Positions 2,359 through 20,959 of a DNA stretch of 20,959 nucleotides are shown here, piece after piece; positions within the stretch are counted from its first letter, which is position 1, and every line of letters begins with the position of its first letter. The DNA is from a virus, in the IMG/VR virus record IMGVR_UViG_3300030419_006715, positions 1 to 20,959 of that record. One strand, written 5' to 3'. The notes under the pieces were generated by a model. That model ran no database searches. It saw only the letters and a list, made by a program, of their open reading frames with translations, and had not been told where the DNA came from. A program made the position numbers and the translations under genes.

Positions 2359-5300
2359 ATGGCTAATCCATCACCCTTTTTACCATATCAAGATAAAAAT
2401 GGCGACTTTTTGTTGGACGATTGTGAGGTTCCACTCCCAGGTCCAATAGAGAAAGTCTGCCTTGATTGCGTACCAAATCCAAAGGCTATCGTAACTGACT
2501 GGAGAAAGAGTCTAAACACCCCATTCTTAAATGAAAAACTATGTCTCTATCAGGTGGGCATCCAGACACACTATTCAAACACAGGCGGAAGCGAACTTAA
2601 AGAACGCTTTGAGGCTTTTAAGGAAGATGCGATTGAATTATTCTTAGACGAATATGAAAAAGAAAACTCATCTAAGAATATGGATATTCTTCGTGAAGGC
2701 ATTTTTTATGATGAGACAAAAGATTTTGAGCTTGAAACGAGAGCCAATTCAAGATTAAGCCTGCTTTATTCGGTGCCTTTCGACGTTCTTGAGTCTCTAG
2801 ATCCCGATGAAGAGGAGGAAGAGGATGATGATAGGGAACCAATAGAGGTGACCTATCTTGCTTCTGAGTTATTGATTCTTTTGACAAGAGTGAGAAAGGG
2901 TCTGAATTTATATTCTAGGTATGTCAAGTACGATAGCGTCATGAACGGCTCTCAGTTGATGTTTGTTAAGACTAGAAGCCCCTTGGATCTAAAAAATTAT
3001 GGAGATAGTGGCTTTGGAAGAAGAAGCGAGCTTGATAGTGCTATTAGAGAGCTTGATAGATTTTTAAACAATCGAGGCTTTAATATTGCTGGCATTGGTA
3101 TTGGATTTTTAAAAGATAGGGTTATCAAGCTTACTCTCGGTTTTGATAGAAAATTCAAACTTAAAAAATTGAAAGTTTTTTCTATGGGATGTCGAGAGAA
3201 ACCAAAAATATTTAAAGGTAGAAAACTATCAGCACTCAATAGAACAGAGCCATTTAAAGATAAAACTGCGATGGGTTACTTTGCCCAGCTAGCAGAGATG
3301 GAAAGAGATCTTAACGCTCGTACTCCCAAAAACTTTGTAGAGTTTGTTAAGGATTATACATATCCAAAAGTCGAATTCTTCAATTCACAAGAAATTGTCA
3401 CTGATCCATCTTTGGCCACATGTGTTGCTGATGCTGCTCGTGATAAGTTGGGTGCTATTGGTCAAGATCTGATTAATGATGTGCTGAGCATTGGTGATAT
3501 TATTGCTTACCAATTCCACAAAAACATTTGTAGAAATAGCCAAGATGAGGCAAAACTAAGACAAGAGTTGGGGCAGCTTTATAGACCCGTAGAAGAGATA
3601 ACTTTATTTGGAAATAAAAAGAACAAAGCAGAGAAAAAGGGCTTTTTTGGAGAAGGTAGTGGCAGACTTATGGGCGCCATGGCAAAACAGCAGGCTCTCG
3701 AAGAGCTTGAAAGGAATCCAAATGTGTTTGTTCGTTTGTGCGCCGATGTTCTTTTAAATGGTGCCGGTCTTGGCGGCAGCCTAGACGCCAGAGGACTATG
3801 GGATCGTAGTCTCAATCCATTGAAGCTTTGTGGTCTTTTAGACTTTTTGCTTGATGGAATACAATGTTTGTGGGCAGGTCTAGAGCTTGAGGAAGCTTTG
3901 GCTATAGCGCTAACCAGCGCCTTGCGTGCTATGGGTTTTGAAAACTTTAATACTCTTTTTGTAGGATTGCCACCAGAAGAGCAAGCAGAATTGGATGCCT
4001 TGGTTAAGAGAAAAATAGCTAATATTAAGGAGTCAGCCAGCCGCCCCCGCACCGCTGAAGATCCAACGGGTGCATCTACACTAGATTCAGATAAGTTCAT
4101 TGGAGAGATAGACTTTGTAAGACCTTTCCAAGATCCAGAACTACTTGAGCAAGAAAAAGCCTCTAGAGCCAATGGTTCCTATGGAGAAACGACGGTCTCA
4201 AAAAGTATGTATAAGGCGCAAAGCGGCAACTTTGGAACTAGGCCAAGAGTTGGGACCTCTTATTCAAACGAAGAGCAGATTTCTGGTCGGCAAACACCAG
4301 CAGAGGATGCGATCAAAAGTGTAGAAAAGAGAGCACAAGACATAGACCCAGATGAAATATTTGAAGCATACGTCCTGTCTTTGATTGAATATTATTCAGG
4401 AAGACTTCTGGATTTAGTTGACTTACTAAACCAATTTCCAGGCGCAGAGATTATCAGCAAAATATTGGCAACATTAGACTGCCCAAGACCCCCTCTGTTT
4501 ACGCCAAGCATCATGGACTTCATTAAGGATATTGAGTTACCCATTTGTAGAAACATCGGGGATATTGCACTACCTAAACTGTTTATTCCAAAGTTTAGCC
4601 TTGCAGATTTACTTAAGAGGCTTGTAAAGGCAATTAGAGAAGCTATAATCAGATTGATCATAAGAATATTGGAAAAACTAATGATCAAGCTGTGCGAAGT
4701 TATTGGAGATGCTATTTGTAGTGCCCTTGAGACAGCGGGCAACATCATAGGCGATCTACCGAGTTTGGTAACAGGAAACTCTACATTTAGACAGATCGTT
4801 AGGGATGCAATTTGTGGACCAGATGCCTCAGACGAACAAGTGGATGATTCTGTGGCATCCATGTTTGAACTTCTTGGGGGCGCAGGCGCCAACTTAGCCA
4901 ATAGAGAAGAGATACTATCTTTTAATGATGCTATAGCATCTTCATCAACAAGACAAGAAATCATCGATGCTTCCTTGGGAACACCTTCAGATCAATTCCT
5001 AAGTATTGTTGATACAATTATCGAATATGAGTTCCCAAACCTGAGAGAGGCTTTCCCAAACAAGGGCTCTATTGGCTCTTTCTATGAAAATTTTGGTAAC
5101 TTATTGCCAGAGGAGATAAAGGGGCAACTTGCGGACATCAACCGTCAAACCTTTGATGATCTTGAGCTTCCAGCCAACCCTTCTCTTTGTGCTACTCCCG
5201 AACAACTCGAAGAGTTCTGTTCTGTTAGAGCGCAGATCCTAGAAGGCAGAGCAACTCCCGAACAGATAGCCCAACTATGCGAAAACCAGCCAACAGCAGA

Positions 5301-8300
5301 GAACTTCGAGGCACTAAACGACATACTACAAGACGGAATACCCGCAACAATAATGAACAATATGCCTCCACTCTTATCAGATCCAGGCTGTGATAATGGA
5401 CTTTTCCCTCGTGAACCAGAAGAACTACAACGCGATGCCGCCCTTAGTCTTGAGGGTGGACTGGATAGTCTCAAGATTGCCTATTCTTATGATATGCTTG
5501 GAAATGGCTTGGGGCAGAAAAACTGGGGCTATATGAACCTAGTCCTCAGCGATACGATGGGAAGACCTTTTACAAATCACGTAAGAACTGTAAGCAGAGG
5601 TAGCCTGTTTTTTGCTAAAAGGTATGTTGATTTCTATGTTGACGCGGACCAAGATGACGAAGACGATGCAATAAACTATGCTAAAACCAAAAGGCAACGA
5701 GGTGCCTTTCCGCTGTATGTAGCCGAATGGATGCCAGAATACTGGAATACCGCCCTGGAGGTCATCACGGTTTCAGAGCCAAACAATAAGATAACAAAAA
5801 AGAAAACCTTTAGAATAGAAAGTGATGACGACATCACCAAAGTTCCTGATTATGGATACAACTACAAACTTGAGCCTACAGATGTGGGCTACAAAGTGGT
5901 ACGAAAGCCAAGAAAAGAAGACGCTGAAATAGTTCTAGATTTTAGAGATAACAACGGTGGCGCCGGAGAGAGTGGGGATGCCAGAAACTCTAGTGATGCC
6001 TCTATGGGCATTGGCTATAGGCTTAGGTTTTATTTTGGAGAGTTCGCAGGACAAAAGAATTTGAAAGATGGAAACGTTAGAGTAAAAATAACACAAAGGC
6101 TGAATAGCCGAAATGTTGGACTAGCAGCACAAAAAACCCTACAAGCTCAGGGCGTAGAGCCTGAAGAGGGTGACGAATCAGAATTTGAAGGAAACGACAA
6201 TGCTGTTGCCACAAATAAAGAGTATGAGTTTATAGGAATAGATGGCGGACTTGAAGAGCTATTAATAGAGGCTAGCTCGCAAGCTGGGCAGATAGTGTCT
6301 CTATACCCACAATTTGAAGCTTCCTTTGAGCAAAAAAATAACAACAACTCGCCACTAATCATTTTGCTTTCCGAAATGCTTTCTGTAGATGGAGCGACAG
6401 CAAAACAATACTGGAAAGAAACTACTACAAAAATGATTGAAGACTTTGGTTCCAAGATTTTCGATTTAAATAATAATGCCTCTTATCTATACGGTGCTAC
6501 TCCAGACTTACTTAAATCAGAGGACGCAGATTATGGAGTAGTGCGGGGTGGCAATTTTAGAGAATATGGGGAGGCAAAAAATAGCGATGGCGATCCATTG
6601 TCCAATAGTGACTCTGAGCTTGGAATAAGCCGAGATCAGTTTAGAAATGGAGAAAACGCCAGAGTATTCTATCTTGATCCGGCCACATTCGGCGGGTCCT
6701 ATGTGAAGCCCAAGGTGTATATAAAGCCTCTTGATAATGAAGGCGTGCTTGGCTTGGTCAATACTATTTTCCCCGAGTTAAGTCCCTGCAAACCACAAAG
6801 AACAGATTTGGTTGATTTTACAGACATCGCTGCTAAGATTTCAAATAGTTATAACAACTATCCAGACGATCCAAGGCTTGCTGGAGATCCTGATTGTGTA
6901 GTCGAGAGACCTTTTGATAGAATTCTCAATAGAACAGCAAAGTCTGGGATAGAAGGTACTATTTCCGCTGCTTGTAGGATCTATGCATCTGTACACTTTC
7001 TCAAAACAATTAACACATTTTCCAAATTTAAGCCTGATTTTAAGAACAACTTAAGCTCTATGTACGCCTCATTTATTCTTGAGGACATGGAAACAGGCAT
7101 GAAAGACTCACAGAGCGGTTTCGCAGAGCTTTTCAACCCCTTCAAGGATGACGAGTTCTGGTATGCTTTCTTAGAACAAGCGGTTCAAGTGTATTTCCAA
7201 AGAATACAATCTGGCGACATTATTGATGTTCCATCTGAGGTCGAGAGGGCACTTGAAAAAATAGCTGAAGCTCAAAATAAATATAACTATCCGTCCCGCC
7301 AAGACTTACGAGATGCCAAGAGAGTGGACGAGGTTCCCTTTATCAGAGGTCTCGATAGATATAGGGAAGATCAGAACCTAGCAGCAGTTAAGTCTGTGGA
7401 AGAACATTGTAAGATTATTCTCAAGGAGTTTATGGTAGAAGAAGTCAACTACATTTCTGATGTATTCTACGAGAACATGGTTAAAGAAAAATTCATAGAT
7501 AAGGATGACTATGTTCATAACCTCTACTATCACATCTTGACCGAACTGACAGATGGCTCCGCACTAACTCTAGACCAAGAATTAAAAGAGACTGTTGGCG
7601 AGATACCGACAGGCACAAACCAATATACAGATGGTAACACCTTGGCTATGGAAGATGGCACCCCTTATGTGGGCTACTATCATACCATGACTGATGATGC
7701 TGGAGATCTGGTCTTTATGGCTGGTGAAGAGCACGATGATGAGAATGAGGTGTTCTTGCGTCCGTTCGCTAACAAGGTTAGTGTGAATGTAGGGGATGTT
7801 AATGGCAACGATAATGATTTATCCAAACCTTTCTTTATTGAAAAGTACATTAAACTTGACGGGACCGATAGAGCATATAGCCAAACTTTGATAGATAAGC
7901 TAAGAGAAGAGGGTGATGTTCTTGTATCTGAGAAATATCCTGGTACGCTAGAGCCCGTATTCGCTGACACCCCAACACCAACAGAAGATCTAGCTGGTCG
8001 CCCAATAGTTGGATTAACAGGGGAGCTTGGGCTGAGATATGGACTAAAATTCTATGCAAGAATAGGTGGACAAAAGAAGTTAGTTGCATCCTCTGAGATA
8101 GATGTGCTTGACTTGCCACTTGCTCTCCTAGAACCACTACAGGCAGATAGCAAAGAACTGCTTTGCTTGATTAACAAGCTGGTAGATGATCCTAACTTTA
8201 AGCTATTTATGGACTATGCAATACCAGCGAGAAAGATTCTTGGCGCACTTGCAATCTACAACGATGTGTGTTATTTGGATTCTATTGGTCAAATAGTGGC

Positions 8301-8667
8301 AAAAAAGGGAGCAAAAAGCTCAGATGACGCCAAACCAGGCGCCACCCTTGAGGGTGGAGGAAACCCAGGTTGGTTCCATCCCGAAGATAGACCTGCATTC
8401 ACTCCATTTGTTGAAACTTGGGATGATTGGGATAGGATAACTTTGAGAAAATCAGATGCCGTGCTGAAAAGAATGTTTAAGTCCTATTATTATTCTCGTG
8501 ATTTTGGGCAACAAGATGAGCCGCAACCAACATGGCAAGTTGTGCTTGACAACTTAAAAGAAAAGTTTAAGTTTGCTCCTGGCGACCGTGTGGTTCCTCG
8601 ATGGTTTAGGAGAGCCTCCAATCCATTCAATGCAAAGGGTGAATTGTGTGAAGGAAAAGATGACTAG
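2359..8667 (+). CDS. Giant (2102-residue) putative baseplate structural protein, unknown function
   Basis: The frame is unbroken from ATG 2359 to TAG 8665-8667. The ribosome binding site is weak (TTGAGAG) and the gene sits 20 bases after its neighbour. I cannot assign a family. The N-terminus has C22, a CLDC pair (C34, C37) and C62 near DCVPNPKA; Cys is scattered through the rest, which is many for a virion protein. Residues 148-160 are almost all Asp and Glu. Around 670-800 is a hydrophobic helical region: CPRPPLF at 708, then a basic amphipathic helix at about 755-791 (AIREAIIRLIIRILEKL). Residues 945-974 hold two TPEQ helical units (ATPEQLEEFC and ATPEQIAQLC). About 1080-1290 is beta-rich and acidic. 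The C-terminal third is mixed. The gene lies between the spike pair and the gp25 gene on the same strand, so a baseplate or hub role is likely. A tape measure is less likely, because long uniform coiled coil is absent. Several segments resemble unannotated proteins I remember from marine phage contigs. Confidence 0.7.
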   Translation: MANPSPFLPYQDKNGDFLLDDCEVPLPGPIEKVCLDCVPNPKAIVTDWRKSLNTPFLNEKLCLYQVGIQTHYSNTGGSELKERFEAFKEDAIELFLDEYEKENSSKNMDILREGIFYDETKDFELETRANSRLSLLYSVPFDVLESLDPDEEEEEDDDREPIEVTYLASELLILLTRVRKGLNLYSRYVKYDSVMNGSQLMFVKTRSPLDLKNYGDSGFGRRSELDSAIRELDRFLNNRGFNIAGIGIGFLKDRVIKLTLGFDRKFKLKKLKVFSMGCREKPKIFKGRKLSALNRTEPFKDKTAMGYFAQLAEMERDLNARTPKNFVEFVKDYTYPKVEFFNSQEIVTDPSLATCVADAARDKLGAIGQDLINDVLSIGDIIAYQFHKNICRNSQDEAKLRQELGQLYRPVEEITLFGNKKNKAEKKGFFGEGSGRLMGAMAKQQALEELERNPNVFVRLCADVLLNGAGLGGSLDARGLWDRSLNPLKLCGLLDFLLDGIQCLWAGLELEEALAIALTSALRAMGFENFNTLFVGLPPEEQAELDALVKRKIANIKESASRPRTAEDPTGASTLDSDKFIGEIDFVRPFQDPELLEQEKASRANGSYGETTVSKSMYKAQSGNFGTRPRVGTSYSNEEQISGRQTPAEDAIKSVEKRAQDIDPDEIFEAYVLSLIEYYSGRLLDLVDLLNQFPGAEIISKILATLDCPRPPLFTPSIMDFIKDIELPICRNIGDIALPKLFIPKFSLADLLKRLVKAIREAIIRLIIRILEKLMIKLCEVIGDAICSALETAGNIIGDLPSLVTGNSTFRQIVRDAICGPDASDEQVDDSVASMFELLGGAGANLANREEILSFNDAIASSSTRQEIIDASLGTPSDQFLSIVDTIIEYEFPNLREAFPNKGSIGSFYENFGNLLPEEIKGQLADINRQTFDDLELPANPSLCATPEQLEEFCSVRAQILEGRATPEQIAQLCENQPTAENFEALNDILQDGIPATIMNNMPPLLSDPGCDNGLFPREPEELQRDAALSLEGGLDSLKIAYSYDMLGNGLGQKNWGYMNLVLSDTMGRPFTNHVRTVSRGSLFFAKRYVDFYVDADQDDEDDAINYAKTKRQRGAFPLYVAEWMPEYWNTALEVITVSEPNNKITKKKTFRIESDDDITKVPDYGYNYKLEPTDVGYKVVRKPRKEDAEIVLDFRDNNGGAGESGDARNSSDASMGIGYRLRFYFGEFAGQKNLKDGNVRVKITQRLNSRNVGLAAQKTLQAQGVEPEEGDESEFEGNDNAVATNKEYEFIGIDGGLEELLIEASSQAGQIVSLYPQFEASFEQKNNNNSPLIILLSEMLSVDGATAKQYWKETTTKMIEDFGSKIFDLNNNASYLYGATPDLLKSEDADYGVVRGGNFREYGEAKNSDGDPLSNSDSELGISRDQFRNGENARVFYLDPATFGGSYVKPKVYIKPLDNEGVLGLVNTIFPELSPCKPQRTDLVDFTDIAAKISNSYNNYPDDPRLAGDPDCVVERPFDRILNRTAKSGIEGTISAACRIYASVHFLKTINTFSKFKPDFKNNLSSMYASFILEDMETGMKDSQSGFAELFNPFKDDEFWYAFLEQAVQVYFQRIQSGDIIDVPSEVERALEKIAEAQNKYNYPSRQDLRDAKRVDEVPFIRGLDRYREDQNLAAVKSVEEHCKIILKEFMVEEVNYISDVFYENMVKEKFIDKDDYVHNLYYHILTELTDGSALTLDQELKETVGEIPTGTNQYTDGNTLAMEDGTPYVGYYHTMTDDAGDLVFMAGEEHDDENEVFLRPFANKVSVNVGDVNGNDNDLSKPFFIEKYIKLDGTDRAYSQTLIDKLREEGDVLVSEKYPGTLEPVFADTPTPTEDLAGRPIVGLTGELGLRYGLKFYARIGGQKKLVASSEIDVLDLPLALLEPLQADSKELLCLINKLVDDPNFKLFMDYAIPARKILGALAIYNDVCYLDSIGQIVAKKGAKSSDDAKPGATLEGGGNPGWFHPEDRPAFTPFVETWDDWDRITLRKSDAVLKRMFKSYYYSRDFGQQDEPQPTWQVVLDNLKEKFKFAPGDRVVPRWFRRASNPFNAKGELCEGKDD

Positions 8668-8690: not shown

Positions 8691-8697
8691 AGTTTAT

Positions 8698-9066
8698 ATG
8701 ACTTCTTTGGCCCCAAAGCTCCCAATAACGATTGATTCTGGCGATGGCTATACGATGATAAAGACCCTCAAGAATCTAATAAAGCAAAACTTTAAAATGC
8801 TAGTCTTAACAAACCCAGGCGAAAGGGTCATGGATCCTGAGTTTGGAGTTGGAATAAGACAATTTTTGTTTGAAAACTTCTCTAGTGATGTTTATACAAG
8901 AATAGACTTTAAGATTAGAGAACAGGTTTCTACCTATATTCCTGTGATCTCAATCAAAACAATTGAGTTTGGAACTTCAAATATCGATGACAACACTCTT
9001 GGTGTTAGGATTGAATATCTTATACCAGACATCGCTGTATCGGATTTGCTTGAGTTTACTATTTAG
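8698..9066 (+). CDS. gp25: Baseplate wedge protein, gp25/GpW family
   Basis: At 122 residues the protein has the size of T4 gp25 (about 130). The family core is clear: a helix (LKNLIKQNFKMLVLT) leads into TNPGERVMDPEFG at 38-50 and then IRQFLFENF, followed by helix and strand segments (FKIREQVSTYIPVISIKTIEF) and a C-terminal beta pair ending in LLEFTI. In T4, P2 and type VI secretion relatives this protein belongs to the inner baseplate wedge and helps start sheath assembly. It follows the giant gene after 30 bases and precedes the gp6/J gene by 17 bases, the canonical W-J order. The strong AGGAGG fixes the start. Nothing appears broken or missing. Confidence 0.93.
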   Translation: MTSLAPKLPITIDSGDGYTMIKTLKNLIKQNFKMLVLTNPGERVMDPEFGVGIRQFLFENFSSDVYTRIDFKIREQVSTYIPVISIKTIEFGTSNIDDNTLGVRIEYLIPDIAVSDLLEFTI

Positions 9067-9071
9067 ATAAT

Positions 9072-9075
9072 GAGG
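9072..9075 (+). promoter_or_regulatory. Ribosome binding site for the gp6/J-like gene
   Basis: GAGG lies eight bases before ATG 9084 in the 17-base spacer after the gp25-like gene. It supports the annotated start. Confidence 0.6.
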
Positions 9076-9083
9076 TAGCGTAG

Positions 9084-10880
9084 ATGCCAAAAGACAAGAC
9101 AAAAACACCTGCTATAAACTATACCAATAGAGATTATGAGACAATTCGGCAAGATCTCACTGAAATAGCAGAGCGTTTTTATCCCGATACATTCCAAGAT
9201 TTTAGTGAAGCTTCTTTTGGCTCGATGATGCTGGATGCTGTAGCTTATGTTGGAGACCAGTTGTCATTTTATTTAGATTATAACGTTAACGAAACCTTCT
9301 TAGACACCTCTTATCAATTTAATAATATTGTCCGTCATGGAAGAATATTAGGTTACAAAAATAGCGGACGCCCCTCCACATATGGGACTGTAGCGCTTTA
9401 TGTTCTGGTGCCTGCATCTGAGACCGGCATTGGTCCAGACGAAAACTATATTCCTATTGTTAAGCGCGGGACGAGGTTTGCAAGCACCAACGGACTTAAT
9501 TTTGTTTTAGTTGAGGATGTTGATATGTCAGAGTCATCTAACCCCGTGGTTGTTGCCACAACAGATAGTACCACGGGCGCTCCAACATTTTATGCCATTA
9601 AATCTTATGGTAGCGTTGTATCAGGATTCTTTAATACTGAAACGATAGAAATAGGAGCATTTCAAAGATTTAAAAGAGTTCCTTTGGATAGCCCCAATGT
9701 TTCCGAGATTATTAGTGTGTTTGATTCAGAGGGGAATGAATACTTTGAGGTTGAATATCTTTCACAAGACACTGTGTTCAAAACTTTGTCAAACAAAAAC
9801 TATAAAAATGATAATGTCCCATCAGTCATGAAGCCTCTACTGGTTAATAGAAAGTTTGTCACCGTATTCGATAACAATGGGGTTTCTTTACAGTTTGGAA
9901 GTGGTGACGAATTAGCTTCCGATATAGTCGCTGAGCCACAAAAAATAGCTATTGATGTATTTGGCAAATCTTATGTTACAGACACAACATTTGATCCAAG
10001 CAGACTTGTTTCAAATAAATATTATGGAATAGTTCCGCAAAACACAACACTTACAATCCTTTATCGACAAACTAATCCAACAAACTCTAATGCTGGTGCT
10101 GGCTCTATAAATGCGATAAGTAGCAGAATTTTAGAGTTTGAAAATGCTGGTGACCTAGCGTCTTCAAAGATGGCAGATGTTAGGGGTTCCCTAGAAGTAA
10201 CAAATGAGTCTCCTATAGTTGGTGATGTTACCAACCCCACACCTATTGAGGTAAAGCAGAGAATCTATGACACCTTTCCGACCCAAAACAGGGCAGTTAC
10301 TCAAAGGGATTATGAAAACCTCATTTATAGAATGCCCTCGAAGTTTGGTTCAGTAAGAAGATGCTCAGTCCAAAAAGATCCAGATTCACAAAAAAGAAAT
10401 CTAAACGTTTATGTGGTATCAGAAGATCCACAAGGAAAATTAACCGAATCTAATAACACAATCAAGAACAACATTAAAACTTGGCTAAATCATTATAGAA
10501 TGATTAATGATACGGTAGACATCCTTGACGCCTTTATCATAAATATAGGTATAAATTTTGTTGTTAGAGCAGAGACAAATGTGGATAAATTTAAGGTTCT
10601 TAATGATTGTGTAGATGCCTTGGCCACTGAGTTTGCAACTCCAATGTTCATAGGTGAGAGTCTCTTATATTCAAAAATATATAATATTTTAAATAACGTT
10701 TCTGGCGTAAACGATACAGTTAAAGTGCAAATAGTAAACAAGAATTCTGCTAACTATTCTAATGTGTTTTTCTCGATTCAAGACAATGTTTCTCCCGACG
10801 GCGACTCTCTTGTTACGCCGAAAAACGCAATCCTAGAACTAAAGTTTCCAGAAGTAGACATAAAAGGTAAGCTAAGATAA
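9084..10880 (+). CDS. gp6: Baseplate wedge protein, gp6/GpJ (Baseplate_J) family
   Basis: This 598-residue protein matches the T4-type gp6 pattern along its length. The N-terminus has INYTNRDYETIRQDL, then FSEASFGSMMLDAVAYVGD and LSFYLDYNVNETFLDT, the typical start of gp6-like wedge proteins. A beta-rich middle includes a GTRF segment and VSLQFGSGDE. The C-terminal part carries QNRAVTQRDYENLIYRMP (about 400-420) followed by KFGSVRR, another hallmark of the family. In T4, gp6 dimers form the continuous inner ring of the baseplate; GpJ does the equivalent in P2. T4 gp6 is about 660 residues, so the length is normal. The gene follows gp25 directly and overlaps the next gene by one base (TAATG). 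I see no lesions. Confidence 0.93.
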   Translation: MPKDKTKTPAINYTNRDYETIRQDLTEIAERFYPDTFQDFSEASFGSMMLDAVAYVGDQLSFYLDYNVNETFLDTSYQFNNIVRHGRILGYKNSGRPSTYGTVALYVLVPASETGIGPDENYIPIVKRGTRFASTNGLNFVLVEDVDMSESSNPVVVATTDSTTGAPTFYAIKSYGSVVSGFFNTETIEIGAFQRFKRVPLDSPNVSEIISVFDSEGNEYFEVEYLSQDTVFKTLSNKNYKNDNVPSVMKPLLVNRKFVTVFDNNGVSLQFGSGDELASDIVAEPQKIAIDVFGKSYVTDTTFDPSRLVSNKYYGIVPQNTTLTILYRQTNPTNSNAGAGSINAISSRILEFENAGDLASSKMADVRGSLEVTNESPIVGDVTNPTPIEVKQRIYDTFPTQNRAVTQRDYENLIYRMPSKFGSVRRCSVQKDPDSQKRNLNVYVVSEDPQGKLTESNNTIKNNIKTWLNHYRMINDTVDILDAFIINIGINFVVRAETNVDKFKVLNDCVDALATEFATPMFIGESLLYSKIYNILNNVSGVNDTVKVQIVNKNSANYSNVFFSIQDNVSPDGDSLVTPKNAILELKFPEVDIKGKLR

Positions 10881-11569
10881 TGGCTATTAGAAGATACAAG
10901 GCAACAGCCGATAACACCATTGCGAATGGTTATCAAGAAAATCTTGGCACTCGTGCGACTGGCTCAAACACAGGACAAGCAGATGTAAGCGAAGTTTACT
11001 CTATCTATGGTCGCGCGACAACAAGTTCGGCAGAGGTTTCGCGAATATTGACACAATTTGACGTTACTTCCATCTCCAGCGACAGAACAGCAGGAGTTGT
11101 ACCCGCCAGTGGTTCCGTAAGTTTTTATCTCAGACTTTATAATGCCGAGACTTCTAAAACAGTTGCAAGGAATTTTGATTTAGTTGTCAGTGCTGTTTCT
11201 CGCTCTTGGACCGAAGGTGATGGACTAGATCTTGAAAACTATAAAGATATTGGAAAATCAAACTGGATTTCTGCATCCTCAACAGTTGCATGGACTACCG
11301 AGGGTGGTGATTACCACGCCTTACCTGTTTTTGAACAAAATTTTGAAACAGGGTTGGAGGATTTGGAGATAGATGTTACCTCACTTGTGGAACAATGGAT
11401 AGCTGGAACAAAAACAAACTATGGATTTGGTATTCAATTGACTTCTTCGCAAGAAGCAAGTAGCTCTACAAATCTCGTTGGTGCAACAAGCTCTTATTAT
11501 ACTAAGCGCTTCTTTGCGAGAGGTACACAATATTTCTTTAAGAAGCCGGTTATAGAGGCACGCTGGAAC
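10880..11569 (+). other. DNRLRE-like domain (within the gene at 10880)
   Basis: This is the N-terminal domain of the gene above, about residues 1-230. The order SRILTQFD, strand, WTEG, W, IDVTSLVEQW, NYGF is the recognisable signature. It was assigned by eye; a profile search would settle it. Confidence 0.65.
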
Positions 11570-12349
11570 TCATCTACTCAAGATGATAGAGGAGATTTCT
11601 ATTATAGTAGTTCTTTGTCGCCTGCTGGTGATAATCTTAATACACTATATCTCTACAACTTTGTTCGTGGTCAACTTACAAACATACCTGATATTGGAAC
11701 AGGTGCGATATATGTAGATCTTTATTCTGGCTCTGCCGATGATACTGCTCCATCTGGCTCCACTTTAGTCCAAAGTATCAGCACTCCCGCAACAGGTGGC
11801 TATGTTTCTACGGGTATTTATTCTTGCTCTGTTTGTATTACTGCTGCCGCCACCCCCATATCAACTTTATATGATGTATGGTATTCAGGAGGCACTCAGT
11901 ATTTCACTGGAACTGTTAAGCCAACAGTTTTAAGAGCCTTGGGCGCATCAACCGGCAACAACCGTCGCATCGCAAAGATCAAGAACCTTCGGGCAAAATA
12001 CTTCTCCGAAGAAGAAGCACGCTTCAATGTCTTCGTCCGAAATAAAAACTGGTCCCCAACTATTTACACAGTAGCGTCATCAGTAGTAGAAAACACTATT
12101 ATTCCTAGCGCATCGTTCAGAGTTTATAGAGTTTTGGATGGACTAAATGTTATACCACACGGCACCGGATCAGACTTACAAACTATACTCTCCTACGATG
12201 TTTCAGGAAACTACTTCAATCTCGATATGTCGCTTCTTGAGCCGGGATACGAATATGGCATCAAACTCGCATTCTATGATTCACAGAGGCAATCTTGGAT
12301 CGAGCAAGATCAAAAGTTCCTATTCCGAGTAGAAGATTATGAGTATTAA
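10880..12349 (+). CDS. DNRLRE-like beta-domain structural protein of the baseplate
   Basis: Residues 1-230 of this 489-residue protein have the layout of DNRLRE-type domains: RYKATADNTI near the start, then SRILTQFDVTSI (54-65), VSFYLRLYNAE, a WTEGDG motif at 110-115, IDVTSLVEQWIAGTKTNYGF (164-183) and closing strands ending in PVIEARW. These domains are known as beta-sandwich modules on bacterial surface proteins. The second half is Ser, Thr and Gly-rich beta structure and ends with a segment (about 365-489) containing LRAKYFSEEEARFNVFVRNK and LEPGYEYGIKLAFYD, which I remember from marine phage structural proteins. The start overlaps the gp6-like stop by one base, with AAGGT about 11 bases upstream. 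The 3' end overlaps the next gene by 11 bases. Location between J and the tail-protein-I-like gene suggests a wedge-periphery or fibre-attachment role with possible glycan binding; this is inference. Confidence 0.7.
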   Translation: MAIRRYKATADNTIANGYQENLGTRATGSNTGQADVSEVYSIYGRATTSSAEVSRILTQFDVTSISSDRTAGVVPASGSVSFYLRLYNAETSKTVARNFDLVVSAVSRSWTEGDGLDLENYKDIGKSNWISASSTVAWTTEGGDYHALPVFEQNFETGLEDLEIDVTSLVEQWIAGTKTNYGFGIQLTSSQEASSSTNLVGATSSYYTKRFFARGTQYFFKKPVIEARWNSSTQDDRGDFYYSSSLSPAGDNLNTLYLYNFVRGQLTNIPDIGTGAIYVDLYSGSADDTAPSGSTLVQSISTPATGGYVSTGIYSCSVCITAAATPISTLYDVWYSGGTQYFTGTVKPTVLRALGASTGNNRRIAKIKNLRAKYFSEEEARFNVFVRNKNWSPTIYTVASSVVENTIIPSASFRVYRVLDGLNVIPHGTGSDLQTILSYDVSGNYFNLDMSLLEPGYEYGIKLAFYDSQRQSWIEQDQKFLFRVEDYEY

Positions 12350-15300
12350 AGATTTATTTGAACGTTCAACAAACTATGTAAGCAACACTAATCAGAAAGA
12401 CGCTTTCTCTGATGCCGAATCATCGAGAAATATAGAGCAGGTTTCTGAAAAACATAGGACATTTGAGCCACAGATAGATTACGGTGATCCACTATCATTT
12501 GCAAGGTTTGGATCCGCAGAGCTTTATTACGAATCCGCGCTCGACCGCATAATAGATTATTATCCTTATGATGGTTCTGATGCAGAATATAACGAGTTCT
12601 ATAATAAGTCTCTAGACATTGAAAAATATATTTTCAATAACCTATACCCAAGAACAAATGGATATGTAAACTTTAGTAGTTCTTCGATTTCGTTCAAGGG
12701 CGGCCCACATACTATCACTTCAGATACCACCTCTGGGCTTTTTAAAGATCCTCAGTCTTCAAAGAGAGAGACTGCAAATGTTTATGATACTGATCTTTAT
12801 ACAACTGCTGGTCTCCCAAACGACTACGGCAGTGGCACTAGAGAATCAAACTTAAAATGTGATTTTACAAAGGGTGTGACTGTTGAGTTCTGGATTAAAT
12901 CTGATACTCTAGATGAGAACACAAAACAAACCCTATTTCACCTAACCAACTCTTCAGGTGCTGATGAGTTCACTATTTATCTTTCTGGCACAACCGGCTC
13001 CCCATTTCATGTTACTTTAACAGATTCAGGAACATCTAGATTCTCTGAAAGCCAGCTTGGTTCGACGCCTACTACAAGTTCCATTACTTCGTGGGGACAT
13101 TATGCCCTAACCTTCAAGAGTGCCAGTGCTGGCATAACATCTAAACTCTATGTCAATGGCGTCCTCGATCAGACAACAACTTTAGGTAGCGTTGGCTCCA
13201 ATACGCTAACACAGAAAGAGACTTTAGGCTATATTGCTACTGGTTCTGCTGGAATTTACTTCGCAGGCTCCATGGACGAATTCCGTTTCTGGAAGGTCGA
13301 GAGAAGTGCCCAAGATGTTGGAAGACATTGGTTTACACAAGTCAGAGGCGGCTCAAATACAGATATTTCCAATACGACCTTGGGTGTGTATTATAAATTT
13401 AATGAGGGTATAACGGGCGTCACAGCAACAGATAGCGTGGTTCTCGATTATTCTGGACGAATTTCTAATGGAACATTTAACGGATATTCTGCTTCTTCTA
13501 GAAATACTGGTTCTGCGATAGTTTCGGCAAGTGCCGCCCCAACAGAGTATCTAGATCCTATCATTCGAGCCAGCCACCCAGACGTCTCTTCACTAAAAAC
13601 TGATTTATCGGCAAAAGGCATAGATCATGATTATAGAAACAATTCGGCTTTTAGTGCATTCTTGCCAAGTTGGATTCTAGAAGATCACGAGGAGAGGGGT
13701 AATAAGAATTTTAAATACTTAAGCCACATAATCGGTGCTTATTTTGACAAATTATACCTTCAGATTGAGGCTATCTCCTCGTTCAAGTCTCCGATTTATA
13801 CAAGCTCCTCTTACAAACCAATTCCTTTCGCAAAGCATTTGCCAGCCTCTTTAGGCTTAGAAACACCAGAAATATTTGTAGATTCAACCGTTCTTGAAAA
13901 ATTTATAAACAGAAACGAAAACGAAAGATTCCAAAACAATCTAGAAGAAACCAAAAACCTTATTTATCTAAATTTATACAACAACTTATCATATCTTTTT
14001 AAATCAAAGGGTACCGAAAAGGCTGTTAGAAACGTCCTTAGAGCATTTAATGTCGATGACAAGCTTGTGAGGCTTAATGCTTATGCCAATAATTATGTTT
14101 ATGAGCTTGAGAACAATCTAAAACAAACTGTAATTAAAAAATCTTATGTCAACCTTAACAACTCAAATCACTTAGATGCTGTTGTTTACTCCTCGGCGTC
14201 CACAAGTGACACCCAGCTTGGCTATATTTCTGGCTCTGGAGAAACAAAGTATGAACATAGATATGGACTAACTCACGAAGTTGATGTTGTTTTTCCAAAG
14301 TTTATACGCCTTATAGATACGTTTGATAGAGACTTTACGAGAGTATCGCTATTTGGCATACACTCTGCAAGCATTAGCACAAATGAAACTTTAGTTTTTG
14401 ACCCAAGCATATACGTTTACGCCCAAAGAGATGAGCAGTATTCTAAAAATGTAAAATTTGTTTTAAGTTCTTCAATACTTTCGACGCAAATCTCAAGTAG
14501 CAATTTCCTGGGTGTTTATGATGATGAAGAGTGGAATCTTTCAGTACGAATTAAGCCATTAAATATTGGTTTAACTGGCTCAGTTGCCAATACTCCTACC
14601 GGCGGCTATCAGCTTGAATTTGCTGGCTATAACCAAAGGCTTGGTGAGATAAGGAATAGTTTCAAGGTTTCGGCTTCTGCAACCGAGGCAAGTGCCCAGA
14701 GTCTCCTTAACTCTCCTAAGAGAATATTTGCAGGAGCACATAGAACAAATATAACAGGCACACTACAGCACAGATCAGATGTAATGATCACGGCTACTCG
14801 TTATTGGACACAATATCTTGATGATCAGAGCCTAAAACAACATGCTTATGACTTTGAGAATTATGGTATCACCGACGGATTAGAGCATATCTCTCCTTTA
14901 GATACAGATAACGCAAGAACATTAAATAGAAATACTCTTGCTTTGAATTATGAATTTGCCAACGTAACTGGCTCTGATGGTTCTGGGGGCTTTACAGTAA
15001 CTGATATTAGCTCCGGCTCAGTCGACAATAGATATAAATTTGGCAAACTAGGTGAGATCTCAAGCTATCTTTATCCCGGTGTTGGTTTTGGATTCGCGGC
15101 TAGTGCAACTAATGTTGTTTTAGATAAAGAAATAAACACCCATCAATTCATAAGCCCCGAATTGGCGATTAGTGACAACTTGGTTCAGATTAAAACTGAT
15201 GACGACAAGCTGTTTGACACAGTTGACACAATTCCAAACTATCACTATCTTCTAGAGAAGAGTATGTATAATGCAATCTCGGAAGAGATGCTGAACTTCT

Positions 15301-18300
15301 TTGCAGGGGTTAATGATTTCCATAACTTAATCGGCGAACCTGTTCATCAATATAGGATGAACTACAAGGGTCTTGAGAAATTACGTGAAGTCTTTTTTAG
15401 AAAAGTAAAGAATGTTACAGAAGTTGAAAAGTTTGTAGATTATTATAAATGGTTTGATGATGCTATCTCGCAGATCATAGGTCAGCTAATACCAGCTTCT
15501 GCTGATTATACTCCAGATATTCTGAACACTATTGAATCTCATGTCTTAGAGCGCAACAAATACCAGTATAGAATCCCAATGTTGGCTTTCACTTCTTCTA
15601 CTGAAGGTGTCGTTTTTGGTGCAGAAGAGTTGCGATACAATTGGGATAGGAATCATGCCCCTGTTAGTGGTTTAGAGACAGAAAATTCAAACTGGTGGAA
15701 GGAGCGTGCTGAAAGAGAGGGCACCATTGCATCTGGTGATACAACCGTTGATACAATACGAAACCAGATCCGAAGAGTTGAAACAAACAAGACTAACGGA
15801 GGTGTTGGTAGAAGTTTCACAGCTACAAAGCAAAAATATTCACGTTCAAACTTCAAATATCGTACTCTCTCCAGGGGTCAGATTTTTGAGGCTAAAAGAA
15901 TAAAAGAAATCAGGGGCGGCGTCAATTTTGAGCACAACAAGGACATTCATTATACCTATACTGCTTTGCACCCAGCCGGACCAGTGACCACTGAGGGTGG
16001 CATCTTTGTTCCCAGAAACGTTTTAATGGCCACAGTTGACGACTTGGTTAATCTACAAGACACAGCGGATCCAGCGCTAAACCCAGCAGCCAAAATCAAG
16101 CGAACAATGCTTGTTCAGCATGGTCGTGATTGGGAAGATGGTCTTGGGTATAAGAATACAAAATCTTCCTTTTCATTCCCCTTTAACATAATTTCTTCTT
16201 CCGTAACGACGGGCTATAACAAGAGAGTGGTGGAGCTTGTTACGGCAAGTGTGGAAATAACAAACCTTCATAATGATGTGTATGGTCCAGATATGGAGCG
16301 CCCTATGCAGGGACCATTTACTGACTATGCCGTCGGCGGACATCAATCGCGCCATGTCAAGATAAACACTGGCACCGATAATTACTTAAACCGCCCTGAA
16401 GCTTGGAAGATTCTTCTTGGCACAGATTGTAGCGTACTAACCGGCTCTATTGGTATGGTTGGGGCTGACTATCCTTTCCCAGAAGCAAATGAGGTCGGTG
16501 AGACACCATACCCCCTCACGGGCGCCCAAAAAGCAACTTTCTATCGTGATCAAATAGCCAAACGACCCGTTAATATTAGAAATATACAACACACGACAGG
16601 CTCCACGGTCCTTGGAAACTACAACAAGAACTATGATGTGGTTCACACTGTTGGTGGCTATTCCAACCCCCGTGCCTTTATAGATGAACAGCCTACGCTG
16701 CCTTCACTTGCTGAGGGCGCCGATATAGTTAAAACCATTCTTGATTTAGATAGGGAAGATCGCTCTCACTTTAAGTTTATAGATGATTATAGTGTTGGAT
16801 ATCTCACAGGTTCCACAGCTTATAAAAACAAGACGGTCATTGTTAGTCGCTTCTCATCACCTGGTTCTCGTGAATCTATGACCCCGGCGTTTAAGGATTT
16901 CCGTGCTGGTGATTTCTCTGTTTACAATGGATTAAATAACAGAAACTTAACTGTTCTTAGACCCTTCCAGGGTGTTTCTAGTTCTATAACTTCCGAAACC
17001 GAGGGCATAAGACCATACGATATTCATGGACAAGCATTTGGTTTTACAAATCTGTCTACGCGTCATTCTGGAAGATTCTTTAGAGATTCGATTATAGCCA
17101 CATCTCCTGGCGCCGCCGACGACGCTTTTACAGAAAGCCCTTCATTCCACAGAGTTCATAGAAACAACAAGATTGTGGCAGTAGAGAATGACACAATAAC
17201 CAATGAACAGAAATTTGACAACTTAAATATACAGCACCAGATTCCTCGTTCGGATCGCCAATACTCTTGGATTACCTCTTCTATTACAAATACAGACCCA
17301 ACTGATCCAAGATATGCCGGATTCATGCAAACAAATTCAAATCTTTCCCCTTATTATGAAATCACAGGAAACTATTATGCCTTCTTTGATTATGTTTCTT
17401 CATCAATAACATCTGCTGGCAATGTTTCCCAAAATACAACTAGATTGAACTTACTGGTTTTAGATCCTACGGGCTCAGAGCAGAACGTTCTTGGAACTAC
17501 TACCGTTAGTCCTGGTTTACAAAATTTAGCTTCGCCATCCAAAGAACTAAACGCACTTCTGATTCGCCGTGGCGACAACTATGGCTGGAACTGGAGAGCC
17601 TTCCGCCAACAAGATCATCCTATCTTGAGAATAGAACACGAAAATAATAAGCTTACGGCAATTAAGGGGACAACGATAAAAGAATTTAGGCTTCCCCCTG
17701 TCTCTATGCATGGACGTCCACTTACTATCAATATGGACATTGACGGTGAAAATGTGTCGCTAAAGACAACCCACAACAATGAGAAGATCTACTTTAACCA
17801 GCGCGAACTTAACGACTTGGTTTTTGAGAAAGAAGATCCAACACTAACATCTTTCGATGAGTTGTTGGAAGCTTCTCAGCAACAAGGGAGCAAGTTAAAC
17901 TGGATTCACTATTCAGAAACCCTGTTCCCATCAATAACAAACGAATTCACAACAAAATCTCGTGAAAGAACTGGTTATGATAACAAGTTCTGGAGAGATG
18001 ATCAAGCAGCCAGAATAACTCTGGGTGACACCTTCAACAACTCTTTCGATGTTAATGTGGCTCAAAGTTCTTGGCCCCTTGATGCCCAAGAGGACTTTCT
18101 CACTAGGGCAACCGCCACATTTGCCGGCTCTTCGGGAAAAACAGATCTTACAAACAATGGCAAGAGCGGAGAACTTCAGAACAATTATAGTTCCTATTGG
18201 AAGGCGTACACCGACGCCGGAGGCTATGGGGCAAATCAGCCTGCCGCCTTATTTTCAAGAAAACATTTTTTGACTTCACCAAACTCCGTTGTCTCAAGAA

Positions 18301-20959
18301 CTGGTTTTGCTCCAACTGCAAGCCTAACAAACACATTTACAGATGTAATAACAAATTATGGCGGCGAAGCACTTTGGGAAGCCGGTACACAAGCAACAAT
18401 AATCACTAAATCTGGTAGCTCTTTTATAACATCTTCGCGTGTCTCTCAGCCCTGGTTTGATAAATATGATGACTTCAAGAAGGAATTACAACTAGTCGCC
18501 AAAGACTACGCGATAGTTCCAGAGTTTCGTATTTCTGAACACATCGAAGAATATGCTAAAGGTGGAATCTTCAATAAATCCAATTTTGATACGTTTGAGA
18601 TACCAGGAACAACTATTAGTAGTTCGCAAACTTCATTCTATAAAGATTATTCTAATTCCGACTTCTTAAAAGAATTTGCTAGCATCAAAGACAATTCTGG
18701 ACTAAAAGCCAAAGAAATAATGCTGACTTGCAAAGCAGCAGTTCGCTTCAATCCTTACAAGGGCTTTTATCCTGCCCAGAGGACATTGGACATAGTTTCG
18801 CAGTTTTCTAGTTCTTTTGCAGCAGGCATTACTATGACCTCTGGTAGTGCGACTTTTAACTTCTCTGATGGAAACAATACATATGGTGGACTAGCTCGCC
18901 CCCTTATACAGCCATTATTTGCTCCGGGCGTCCTTTACAACTCTATCAAGTCCGGTATTGCTGTTGACTATCCAATAGTGAACGATTCATCTAAACTTAA
19001 ATCTTTCAATTTCGGATCCGCCGCTGGAGTTGAAAACCATCTCTTTTGGACACATTATAACGCTACATCGTCTTTGACGATTGCTAGAGATGGCTATAAT
19101 CCACTTTCACCTGTTTGGGATTTACGCACTCCTTTTGAGGCTATTCTTGAGCCGTCGAAGCACCTTGATAAAGTTCAATTTTTAGACTTTGAGCCACATC
19201 CATCGGCCTCCATAAATGCTACTGCTTCCTTGGATGCATCCGTTTCTGATGGAATTTATGAACTGATGGTTAAAAACTTCCTCGGGCAAACCGGTGAGTT
19301 TTTCTTGAAAGATTCTAGATTCACCAAAATTGAATCTGATTTAATACAAGATGATCTAAAGTTTAATGGCGATGAGGTCTTTGGTGCAAGACTAAAAATA
19401 AGAAAATCCCACAATGGAAAAAGATATTATAATGGCGAATTCGGCTCTGACGGGACGGCTGGTGCTTTTACAGTAAATGGGGCTCAAGCGTTTAGCGGTT
19501 CTATAGGGCAAGTATTGTCTATTACAAGTGGCTCATTCCCCCTTCCACAGGATCCGGCACACAATACTTCATTCCAAGAAACTTTTACAATGTATTCTCG
19601 ACCAACGGCTTTTGGTCCATCTATTAGTGGTAGGGCAGCCGCCGGATCAACCACAGCATTTTCGAGTGGAACCTTGGATTCGCTAGAGGGCTTTAACTGG
19701 GCTTATACGCCACCTTATTACCACGGTGAGTCTTGGGTTGATTTCATCTTCAGACCATCAGCGAATAAAGACTATACTTTAGAAGATGTGCTAACTGAAA
19801 CTAGCACTGTTTATTGGAGAGTAGATCCGGGTCAGATGACTGGTTCCAATACTGGTGTCAATTCATATAGAAATGAAAGAAAAATAATACAAGTTGCCAG
19901 AGTTACTATACCAAATGCCGAGCGTATCCCAATCTACGGAGGCTCTGTAATTAACAAGAACTCCATGCAACTTTCAGCTTCTCTCAATCTATTCGGTGTC
20001 GAGAGGGTGCCACAAAAACGTAAAGACAAGTTTGGAAACACTATCCTTGATGAAAACCTATTAGCAGGAAAGAGGTGGGTCATCCAGCCAAAATGGGAAA
20101 CCCCAATGCTCAACTTCGCAAATGTATCTGCCGATAACGGAAACATAACATACCCAGCAGCACTCTCAGAATCTGTTCCAAGAGGAATCTGGCACCAGTT
20201 TGGCGAAATACCAAGCGATCCGTCAACTGGTGTCTTCTTGGAAATGGGCGACATCCCAACAGACTGGCTAAAATATCACTATGATGTTATTAATGAGGAT
20301 TCTGTTTATAATGGTAGCGATGCCACCAACTCTGGCTCTAGCGCTTATGAGTATTATCAGTCTCTAACAGACTTATTTGGCTTCGACAGGTCACAGAAAA
20401 AAGACTCCGCAAAAGTACGCCTTGGAGAAATTGCGGACAAGAGAGAGGTATACGAGGCGGTTGTAGCCATACCATACATTCTTGAAGCAAATGAAGATTA
20501 CGACAACGCAAAAACAAACGACGATCAGAACCGTAAACAGTTCATAAGTATTCCACGAGCCCGCTTTGATGCTGCTCTTAAGGAGCGCGAAGGCTCCGTT
20601 GATGGTGACTCTCTCGAAACAGCAGGCGAGTCCATTCGCAAGATGGTACAGAAGATGAAGCGTTATGTTCTACCTCCACAGTTTGACTCAATCAACTTTG
20701 ATGAGATCGATCCTATTGTTATGTACTTCTTCGAGTTCAAGTACGAACTTGACAAGGACGACCTCTCATACATCTGGCAGAACCTTGCTCCGAGAGACTA
20801 CAAAAAGATTACATTCCAAGAAGCTTCTGTAGCTCACGACTTGATGAACAATGAACTGCTCGATGAGCAAAACATCATTGACAACCCCAACCTCCGTTGG
20901 ATGGTCTTCAAAGTCAAGCAGAAAGCAGAAAAAGATTATTACGATCTCGTACTCCCACA
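12339..20959 (+). CDS. Giant multidomain tail/baseplate protein with LamG and tail-protein-I-like regions (3' end outside window)
   Basis: I translated this frame from ATG 12339 to the window edge and found no stop: at least 2873 residues, unfinished. An in-frame TAG at 12330-12332 makes 12339 the first possible ATG; it overlaps the previous gene by 11 bases and has only a weak GAG upstream. Domains in order: an N-terminal region with GDPLSFARFGS; a LamG-like domain (168-400); a tail-protein-I-like helical segment (441-587) with KSKGTEKAVRNVLRAF at 555-570; a second probable LamG-like domain (603-843); HVLERNKY at 1068-1075; NLHNDVYGPDM at 1309; SSWPLDA around 1912; PEFRISEH at 2061; GFYPAQRT at 2142; YTPPYYHGE at 2456; RWVIQPKWETPMLNF at 2579; and LRWMVFKVKQKAE near the edge. 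The later motifs are ones I recall from unannotated marine phage structural proteins. Position after W and J suggests a gpI/gp7-type wedge component grown into a giant adhesin-like protein; this is inference. Confidence 0.85.
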   Translation, partial: MSIKDLFERSTNYVSNTNQKDAFSDAESSRNIEQVSEKHRTFEPQIDYGDPLSFARFGSAELYYESALDRIIDYYPYDGSDAEYNEFYNKSLDIEKYIFNNLYPRTNGYVNFSSSSISFKGGPHTITSDTTSGLFKDPQSSKRETANVYDTDLYTTAGLPNDYGSGTRESNLKCDFTKGVTVEFWIKSDTLDENTKQTLFHLTNSSGADEFTIYLSGTTGSPFHVTLTDSGTSRFSESQLGSTPTTSSITSWGHYALTFKSASAGITSKLYVNGVLDQTTTLGSVGSNTLTQKETLGYIATGSAGIYFAGSMDEFRFWKVERSAQDVGRHWFTQVRGGSNTDISNTTLGVYYKFNEGITGVTATDSVVLDYSGRISNGTFNGYSASSRNTGSAIVSASAAPTEYLDPIIRASHPDVSSLKTDLSAKGIDHDYRNNSAFSAFLPSWILEDHEERGNKNFKYLSHIIGAYFDKLYLQIEAISSFKSPIYTSSSYKPIPFAKHLPASLGLETPEIFVDSTVLEKFINRNENERFQNNLEETKNLIYLNLYNNLSYLFKSKGTEKAVRNVLRAFNVDDKLVRLNAYANNYVYELENNLKQTVIKKSYVNLNNSNHLDAVVYSSASTSDTQLGYISGSGETKYEHRYGLTHEVDVVFPKFIRLIDTFDRDFTRVSLFGIHSASISTNETLVFDPSIYVYAQRDEQYSKNVKFVLSSSILSTQISSSNFLGVYDDEEWNLSVRIKPLNIGLTGSVANTPTGGYQLEFAGYNQRLGEIRNSFKVSASATEASAQSLLNSPKRIFAGAHRTNITGTLQHRSDVMITATRYWTQYLDDQSLKQHAYDFENYGITDGLEHISPLDTDNARTLNRNTLALNYEFANVTGSDGSGGFTVTDISSGSVDNRYKFGKLGEISSYLYPGVGFGFAASATNVVLDKEINTHQFISPELAISDNLVQIKTDDDKLFDTVDTIPNYHYLLEKSMYNAISEEMLNFFAGVNDFHNLIGEPVHQYRMNYKGLEKLREVFFRKVKNVTEVEKFVDYYKWFDDAISQIIGQLIPASADYTPDILNTIESHVLERNKYQYRIPMLAFTSSTEGVVFGAEELRYNWDRNHAPVSGLETENSNWWKERAEREGTIASGDTTVDTIRNQIRRVETNKTNGGVGRSFTATKQKYSRSNFKYRTLSRGQIFEAKRIKEIRGGVNFEHNKDIHYTYTALHPAGPVTTEGGIFVPRNVLMATVDDLVNLQDTADPALNPAAKIKRTMLVQHGRDWEDGLGYKNTKSSFSFPFNIISSSVTTGYNKRVVELVTASVEITNLHNDVYGPDMERPMQGPFTDYAVGGHQSRHVKINTGTDNYLNRPEAWKILLGTDCSVLTGSIGMVGADYPFPEANEVGETPYPLTGAQKATFYRDQIAKRPVNIRNIQHTTGSTVLGNYNKNYDVVHTVGGYSNPRAFIDEQPTLPSLAEGADIVKTILDLDREDRSHFKFIDDYSVGYLTGSTAYKNKTVIVSRFSSPGSRESMTPAFKDFRAGDFSVYNGLNNRNLTVLRPFQGVSSSITSETEGIRPYDIHGQAFGFTNLSTRHSGRFFRDSIIATSPGAADDAFTESPSFHRVHRNNKIVAVENDTITNEQKFDNLNIQHQIPRSDRQYSWITSSITNTDPTDPRYAGFMQTNSNLSPYYEITGNYYAFFDYVSSSITSAGNVSQNTTRLNLLVLDPTGSEQNVLGTTTVSPGLQNLASPSKELNALLIRRGDNYGWNWRAFRQQDHPILRIEHENNKLTAIKGTTIKEFRLPPVSMHGRPLTINMDIDGENVSLKTTHNNEKIYFNQRELNDLVFEKEDPTLTSFDELLEASQQQGSKLNWIHYSETLFPSITNEFTTKSRERTGYDNKFWRDDQAARITLGDTFNNSFDVNVAQSSWPLDAQEDFLTRATATFAGSSGKTDLTNNGKSGELQNNYSSYWKAYTDAGGYGANQPAALFSRKHFLTSPNSVVSRTGFAPTASLTNTFTDVITNYGGEALWEAGTQATIITKSGSSFITSSRVSQPWFDKYDDFKKELQLVAKDYAIVPEFRISEHIEEYAKGGIFNKSNFDTFEIPGTTISSSQTSFYKDYSNSDFLKEFASIKDNSGLKAKEIMLTCKAAVRFNPYKGFYPAQRTLDIVSQFSSSFAAGITMTSGSATFNFSDGNNTYGGLARPLIQPLFAPGVLYNSIKSGIAVDYPIVNDSSKLKSFNFGSAAGVENHLFWTHYNATSSLTIARDGYNPLSPVWDLRTPFEAILEPSKHLDKVQFLDFEPHPSASINATASLDASVSDGIYELMVKNFLGQTGEFFLKDSRFTKIESDLIQDDLKFNGDEVFGARLKIRKSHNGKRYYNGEFGSDGTAGAFTVNGAQAFSGSIGQVLSITSGSFPLPQDPAHNTSFQETFTMYSRPTAFGPSISGRAAAGSTTAFSSGTLDSLEGFNWAYTPPYYHGESWVDFIFRPSANKDYTLEDVLTETSTVYWRVDPGQMTGSNTGVNSYRNERKIIQVARVTIPNAERIPIYGGSVINKNSMQLSASLNLFGVERVPQKRKDKFGNTILDENLLAGKRWVIQPKWETPMLNFANVSADNGNITYPAALSESVPRGIWHQFGEIPSDPSTGVFLEMGDIPTDWLKYHYDVINEDSVYNGSDATNSGSSAYEYYQSLTDLFGFDRSQKKDSAKVRLGEIADKREVYEAVVAIPYILEANEDYDNAKTNDDQNRKQFISIPRARFDAALKEREGSVDGDSLETAGESIRKMVQKMKRYVLPPQFDSINFDEIDPIVMYFFEFKYELDKDDLSYIWQNLAPRDYKKITFQEASVAHDLMNNELLDEQNIIDNPNLRWMVFKVKQKAEKDYYDLVLP
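12840..13538 (+). other. LamG/concanavalin-like domain 1 (within the giant gene)
   Basis: Residues 168-400 show the LamG_3-like order: VTVEFWIKSD, FHLTNSSG, FTIYLSG, WGHYALTF, SKLYVNGVLDQ, and the closing GSMDEFRFWKVERSAQDV at 310-327, which matches the usual G-x-(I/M)-D-E-x-R-x-W ending. By family such beta-sandwiches often bind carbohydrates or act as structural modules in phage tail proteins. Confidence 0.8.
13659..14099 (+). other. Tail-protein-I-like segment (within the giant gene)
   Basis: Residues 441-587 are helical. They include LPSWILEDHEERG, a long amphipathic helix around AYFDKLYLQIEAI, KHLPASLGLE, and then NLSYLFKSKGTEKAVRNVLR ending in AF. The KGT-x(3)-hydrophobic-R pattern followed by a helix is the most recognisable part of P2 GpI-family proteins. 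GpI follows GpJ in P2, as here. Assignment rests on pattern and gene order. Confidence 0.5.
14145..14867 (+). other. Probable second LamG-like domain (within the giant gene)
   Basis: Residues 603-843 contain WNLSVRIKPLN, YQLEFAGYN, a GAHRTNITGTL segment and RYWTQYLDDQSLKQHAYDF. This resembles the strand order and closing region of a concanavalin-like sandwich. It is less clear than domain 1 and diverges from it, so it is not a recent duplication. Confidence 0.5.

Follow-up and report, generated by a model that had tools for sequence, protein, structure and literature searches.

The question raised by this locus is what protein is encoded by an open reading frame that begins with an ATG at position 12339 and runs on for 2873 codons, to position 20957, without meeting a stop codon. 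The window, that is, the whole stretch of DNA analyzed here, is an entire IMG/VR virus record of 20,959 bases, so the 3' end of the giant gene, which is still open, cannot be read from the record itself. The gene, its parts and the gp25, gp6 and 489-aa genes described below are all on the plus strand. In the reading that we favour, with a probability of roughly 70%, the virus is an uncultured marine myovirus of the Far-T4-like kind and the product is its gp7-type baseplate wedge protein, to which lectin-like insertions and a C-terminal unit of ~1,200 residues have been added.

A sequence-only reading of the window had already called an uninterrupted frame of at least 2873 codons running off its end, and both the ORF reading and the relatives confirm this. 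Judged by base composition alone, a stop-free run of this length has a probability of ~10^-79; GC by codon position stays in register throughout the frame, and signs of frameshifts are absent. A first scan of IMG/VR gave 73 related loci, and another scan, for which the C-terminal half was the query, gave at least 79 further loci and hundreds more matching stretches. For 111 scored loci both halves are in a single closed ORF, with two ORFs in 2 (L059 and L067). There are 76 distinct closed single ORFs, as judged by their last 400 residues, with lengths of 2807-4145 aa (median 3311.5). The start and end of the giant ORF, and the boundary between its two units, are conserved among the relatives. 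The five closest (L002, L003, L016, L019 and L021) continue for 54-55 residues beyond the point where the window ends and then stop, and the full length of the protein is therefore predicted to be ~2,927-2,928 aa. The giant size is real, and at least 76 distinct sequences from related viruses have it too.

Two of the genes that precede the giant ORF are recognisably those of a T4-like baseplate. The first encodes a gp25-type baseplate wedge protein or sheath initiator (8698-9066; PHROG 261, 7.5e-22; Pfam GPW_gp25, 3.5e-13) and the second a gp6-type baseplate wedge protein (9084-10880; PHROG 6, 5.3e-20), which matches its Mel-JY01 counterpart with 98% coverage at 7e-81 and has matches of equal extent (98% of its length) in phage immuto and in an uncultured phage of 484 kb. 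These are followed by a gene for a 489-aa protein (10880-12349), which overlaps the start of the giant gene by 11 bases and resembles the gene that the 484-kb phage has in this slot. Weak matches of this 489-aa ORF to TGFb_propeptide, CBM96 and Disaggr_repeat suggest a beta-rich protein. The order gp25 - gp6 - 489-aa gene - giant gene is that of the gp7 slot of T4-like baseplates; in T4 itself the gene after gp6 is gp7. The arrangement recurs in Mel-JY01, immuto and the 484-kb phage, where one or two genes separate the gp25-gp6 pair from an ORF of 1265-1400 aa that bears the core described below. The giant gene thus adjoins the gp25/gp6 neighbourhood, as is expected of a gp7-type wedge protein in the broad sense. 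Just upstream of gp25 there is a second giant ORF (2359-8667; 2102 aa), rich in Leu, Asp and Glu, for which no significant Pfam or PHROG family was found; many relatives have ORFs of similar size in this slot. Further upstream, a 367-aa ORF (231-1334) has faint matches to M15/VanY peptidases (E 0.11-0.17).

The first half of the giant protein contains a core in two parts, the first mostly helical (residues 395-640; 13521-14258) with helices in the AF2 model, and the second (residues 900-1110; 15036-15668) with helices at ~977-1050. Both parts match the slot proteins of the Mel-JY01 type in profile-profile comparison (hhalign P 1.8e-17 and 2.6e-10, respectively), and no such match was found for residues 1100-1690 or 1690-2873. 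In piecewise searches, the profile of residues 301-600 found the 1265-1400-aa proteins at E ~1e-15, and that of residues 901-1200 found the 1400-aa protein (3.5e-11). RM378 gave no match to the core. The N-terminal segment (residues 1-150; 12339-12788) is conserved in A1, and its residues 35-75 faintly resemble Mel-JY01 residues 280-313, at a level that is suggestive only (hhalign P 0.007 to 0.0045). The AF2 model of the core has a low mean confidence (56), and a PDB sequence search with the core found nothing meaningful and no relative with a solved structure.

The link from this core to gp7 runs through a signature segment, YNNLSYLFKSKGTEKAVRNVLRAF (residues ~547-571; 13977-14051), which has a match in cyanophage gp7 and whose equivalent in T4 gp7 is YDFYSTKGIEASYKFLFKVL (the KGT/KGI segment). 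Compared with the N-terminal domains of proteins annotated as gp7 in cyanophages and T4-like phages, the core scored P 2.3e-5 over the KGT segment, against P 0.016 or worse for the controls gp6, gp8, gp9, gp10 and gp11; this is a modest match over one short helical segment of ~80 columns. The cyanophage gp7 profile in turn finds T4 gp7 in the PDB at residues 730-758 with 3.1e-4, where T4 has the corresponding segment. Compared directly with T4 gp7, the core gave no signal (hhalign P 0.26 or worse), and the Pfam domains Gp7_helical, Gp7_5th and Gp7_6th, present in T4 gp7, were not found in the giant protein, which on its sequence appears to lie outside the T4 gp7 subfamily. The sequence-only reading had also called a segment resembling tail protein I. 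In the giant protein Tail_P2_I (PF09684) stays below threshold (11.6 bits against a cut-off of 20.6, E 0.25), but the resemblance gains independent support from the core profiles: no Pfam family is matched by more core members than Tail_P2_I (5 of 26), although each match stays below the cut-off, with a best E of 0.058. T4 gp7 itself also misses this cut-off. Since the core profiles lead to cyanophage gp7, through these to T4 gp7, and to Tail_P2_I, we use gp7-type in a broad sense.

The C-terminal unit (residues 1690-2873; 17406-20957) is predicted as one confident block (AF2 pLDDT 77.9, pTM 0.82). No sequence match was found in the PDB, and a search of PDB folds gave nothing better than E 1.1. 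A VIA re-check of the fold reached Z 4.3 at best and covered little beyond model residues 99-171, which is no proof of a new fold. The window sequence of the unit has no Pfam or PHROG family. In BFVD there are seven strong matches, one labelled as an uncultured marine virus and the others without a name; such proteins have thus been deposited but are undescribed. A profile search that found both positive controls did not find the unit in Mel-JY01, immuto, two uncultured giant phages, Melnitz-1, phiN3, T4 or RM378, nor in the genomes of Syn1, P-HM1 and ACG-2014f. The unit was also absent from all 80 of a further set of Mel-JY01-type loci, in which the closed core ORFs measure 1191-2217 aa.

Lectin-like domains account for other parts of the protein. 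The LamG-like domain proposed in the sequence-only reading is correct: Laminin_G_3 (PF13385) matches residues 175-327 at 9.1e-17, with 62 bits against a cut-off of 27.6, within a LamG/concanavalin-A-like domain at residues ~161-335 (12819-13343) that has a counterpart in all 39 aligned relatives. A second concanavalin-A/LamG-like jelly roll is predicted by the structural model at residues 600-938 (14136-15152), where no Pfam match was found; its structural matches include PAPP-A and N-acetyl-beta-phenylalanine acylase (VIA-align Z ~16, rmsd ~4 over 213-219 residues). The middle region (residues ~1100-1680; 15636-17378) is modelled with low confidence and carries lectin-cassette inserts in relatives. 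Extra cassettes occur in the relatives at sites equivalent to residues ~276, 1108, 1386, 1589 and 1612-1635, and all six inserts tested are Laminin_G_3 domains above the cut-off; LamG cassettes thus occupy different permitted sites in different relatives.

The constant presence of LamG and the extra cassettes at several sites, together with a composition rich in Ser, Thr and Asn, would also suit a very large adhesin of the tail, or a receptor-binding protein of the fibre type, whose LamG domains bind glycans of the host while the remainder serves as their scaffold and has no wedge role. We consider this unlikely, given that the core is homologous to the gp7-slot proteins of other phages and to cyanophage gp7, that the gene follows gp25, gp6 and the 489-aa gene, and that conservation extends over all of the C-terminal unit, unlike in the variable tips of fibres. 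A wedge protein remains our preferred reading, and the earlier assignment to the baseplate region is borne out by gene order and core homology.

The boundary between the two units lies at residues ~1681-1690 (17379-17408), the place at which the second gene of a split clade starts. In five loci (L059, L067, L162, L163 and L165) the C-terminal unit is a separate gene directly downstream, with its start always in the same place; in L059 the two genes overlap by ATGA, and in L067 the second is preceded by the motif AGAAGAGG. The five split loci form one clade (98*), and homologues are therefore not consistently split into separate genes. In a tree rooted on the Mel-JY01-type set, the fused loci L050 and L051 fall outside the split clade with support of 88, which makes one fission slightly more economical than two fusions. 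A fusion followed by a single fission would thus be slightly favoured, although long branches make this call unsafe. The earlier suggestion of a fusion of ancestral tail genes accordingly stands as far as the two pieces are concerned, the C-terminal ~1,200 residues being a gene of their own in one clade. A different kind of break is seen in L166 (3-7037 and 7180-8049; 2345 + 290 aa), where the giant frame is interrupted near its C-terminus; the frame is unbroken in its close sister L168, and the interruption is either a recent break or a sequencing error.

The independence of the two halves, which in one clade are encoded by two genes divided at residue ~1681, could also mean that the giant is a precursor polyprotein: a single chain would be made and then cut near this residue, giving the gp7-type wedge protein and one more component of the virion. 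In T4, cleavage during head assembly is known for some virion proteins. Here it seems quite improbable: nothing was found in favour of the processing raised in the sequence-only reading, no cleavage site was identified, and most relatives (76 distinct) keep one frame, for which simple covalent linkage is an equally good explanation. As for an assembly artefact or fused contigs, the end of the window does fall inside the ORF, but many assemblies contain closed ORFs built in the same way (76 distinct ones), with conserved start, boundary and end, and these exclude an erroneous joining of two genes almost to certainty. A tape-measure function was rejected on gene position and domains.

Comparison with known phages shows which features of the giant protein are shared. 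The slot proteins of the Microcystis phage Mel-JY01 (1336 aa), the Flavobacterium phage immuto (1265 aa) and the uncultured 484-kb phage LR756508 (1400 aa) are homologous to it in the core, at 395-640 and 900-1110, and are encoded in the same gene order; they lack both the middle region and the C-terminal unit. The gp7 or 'baseplate wedge initiator' proteins of the marine T4-like cyanophages P-HM1 (4446 aa), ACG-2014f (4225 aa) and Syn1 (3274 aa) are giant too and are encoded directly after gp25-gp6. They share the KGT helical segment, but have it near their N-terminus, and no match to the C-terminal unit or other homology beyond the core was found in them. Such a size, which the sequence-only reading had set far above those of P2 GpI and T4 gp7, is therefore not without parallel, being found in the gp7 slot of cultured cyanophages, and giant gp7-locus proteins as such are already known (P-HM1, ACG-2014f). 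T4 gp7 (1032 aa) is like the giant protein in its position after gp6 and in the segment reached through the cyanophage profile. P2 gpI and other Tail_P2_I proteins, whose family is matched by the same core region, are far smaller. Sullivan et al. reported gp7, gp10 and gp12 to be divergent enough to fall into up to nine clusters (PMC3037559). Within the literature searched, no description of this protein was found; what is new is its lineage, its design in two units, the recurrence of sites at which lectin domains are inserted and a C-terminal unit without a known family.

The lineage of the virus is best seen in its large relatives. T4-type gp23 is present in 11 of 13 (~1e-60), and a contractile sheath also in 11 of 13. 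In relatives such as L169 and L170 the sheath-bearing frames, of 833-1122 aa, exceed T4 gp18, which has ~659 aa. The window itself has no gp23. By tblastn, the gp23 proteins of the relatives are nearest to those of the 484-kb phage, Mel-JY01 and RM378, which fits the Far-T4 phages (PMC4360716, PMC7198788, PMC13037479), and we infer from these relatives that the window probably derives from a Far-T4-like phage. Marine phages of this kind have been linked to Bacteroidetes / Flavobacteriales hosts (PMC7198788, PMC13037479), and their host-interaction genes are largely unrecognised (PMC4360716). A tblastn search of 50,697 phage records with the whole giant protein gave no match at 1e-5, and looser limits added only LamG-region or marginal matches. 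No match was found among plasmids, and PHROGs contained no family for the whole protein. A bacterial genome collection gave four matches, all in metagenome-assembled genomes. One of these, L179, is a 'chromosome' of 2.85 Mb from a WOR-3 genome assembled in this way, in which no gp23 was found; its 1562-aa ORF (8696-13381) has the core and lacks the later parts, and the record may be chimaeric or reflect a stray piece of phage DNA.

Because of the position of its gene, the giant protein is presumed to be part of the virion. By analogy with T4, in which (gp6)2-gp7 is the wedge module, and with XM1 (PMC10457771), the helical core (~395-640 and 900-1090) would pair with a gp6 dimer to form one of six wedges, giving six copies per baseplate. 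Such wedges would link the rim of the baseplate with gp25 and the sheath, to which the core would pass the trigger from the rim. The LamG domains may project outward from the wedge, binding surface glycans or holding receptor-binding proteins. The C-terminal unit may form an outer platform for the fibres and spikes whose genes lie downstream, since none of the genes downstream in relative L019 was found to belong to a PHROG or Pfam family naming gp8 or gp10. A further proposal, which we regard as speculative, is that the unit is a virion module of an unseen fold that does the work of the peripheral baseplate proteins gp8, gp9, gp10 and gp11 and is covalently joined to the core in most Far-T4-like phages, lectin cassettes being swapped at fixed sites and altering host range.

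Far-T4-like phages are widespread in water, and these results put a name, that of a likely baseplate wedge protein, to one of their giant genes. They also draw attention to a large conserved unit that has no known family, and the clean boundary between the domains offers a starting point for expression and structure work. Finally, lectin cassettes occur at recurrent sites of a single scaffold, and their possible role in host binding can be tested.
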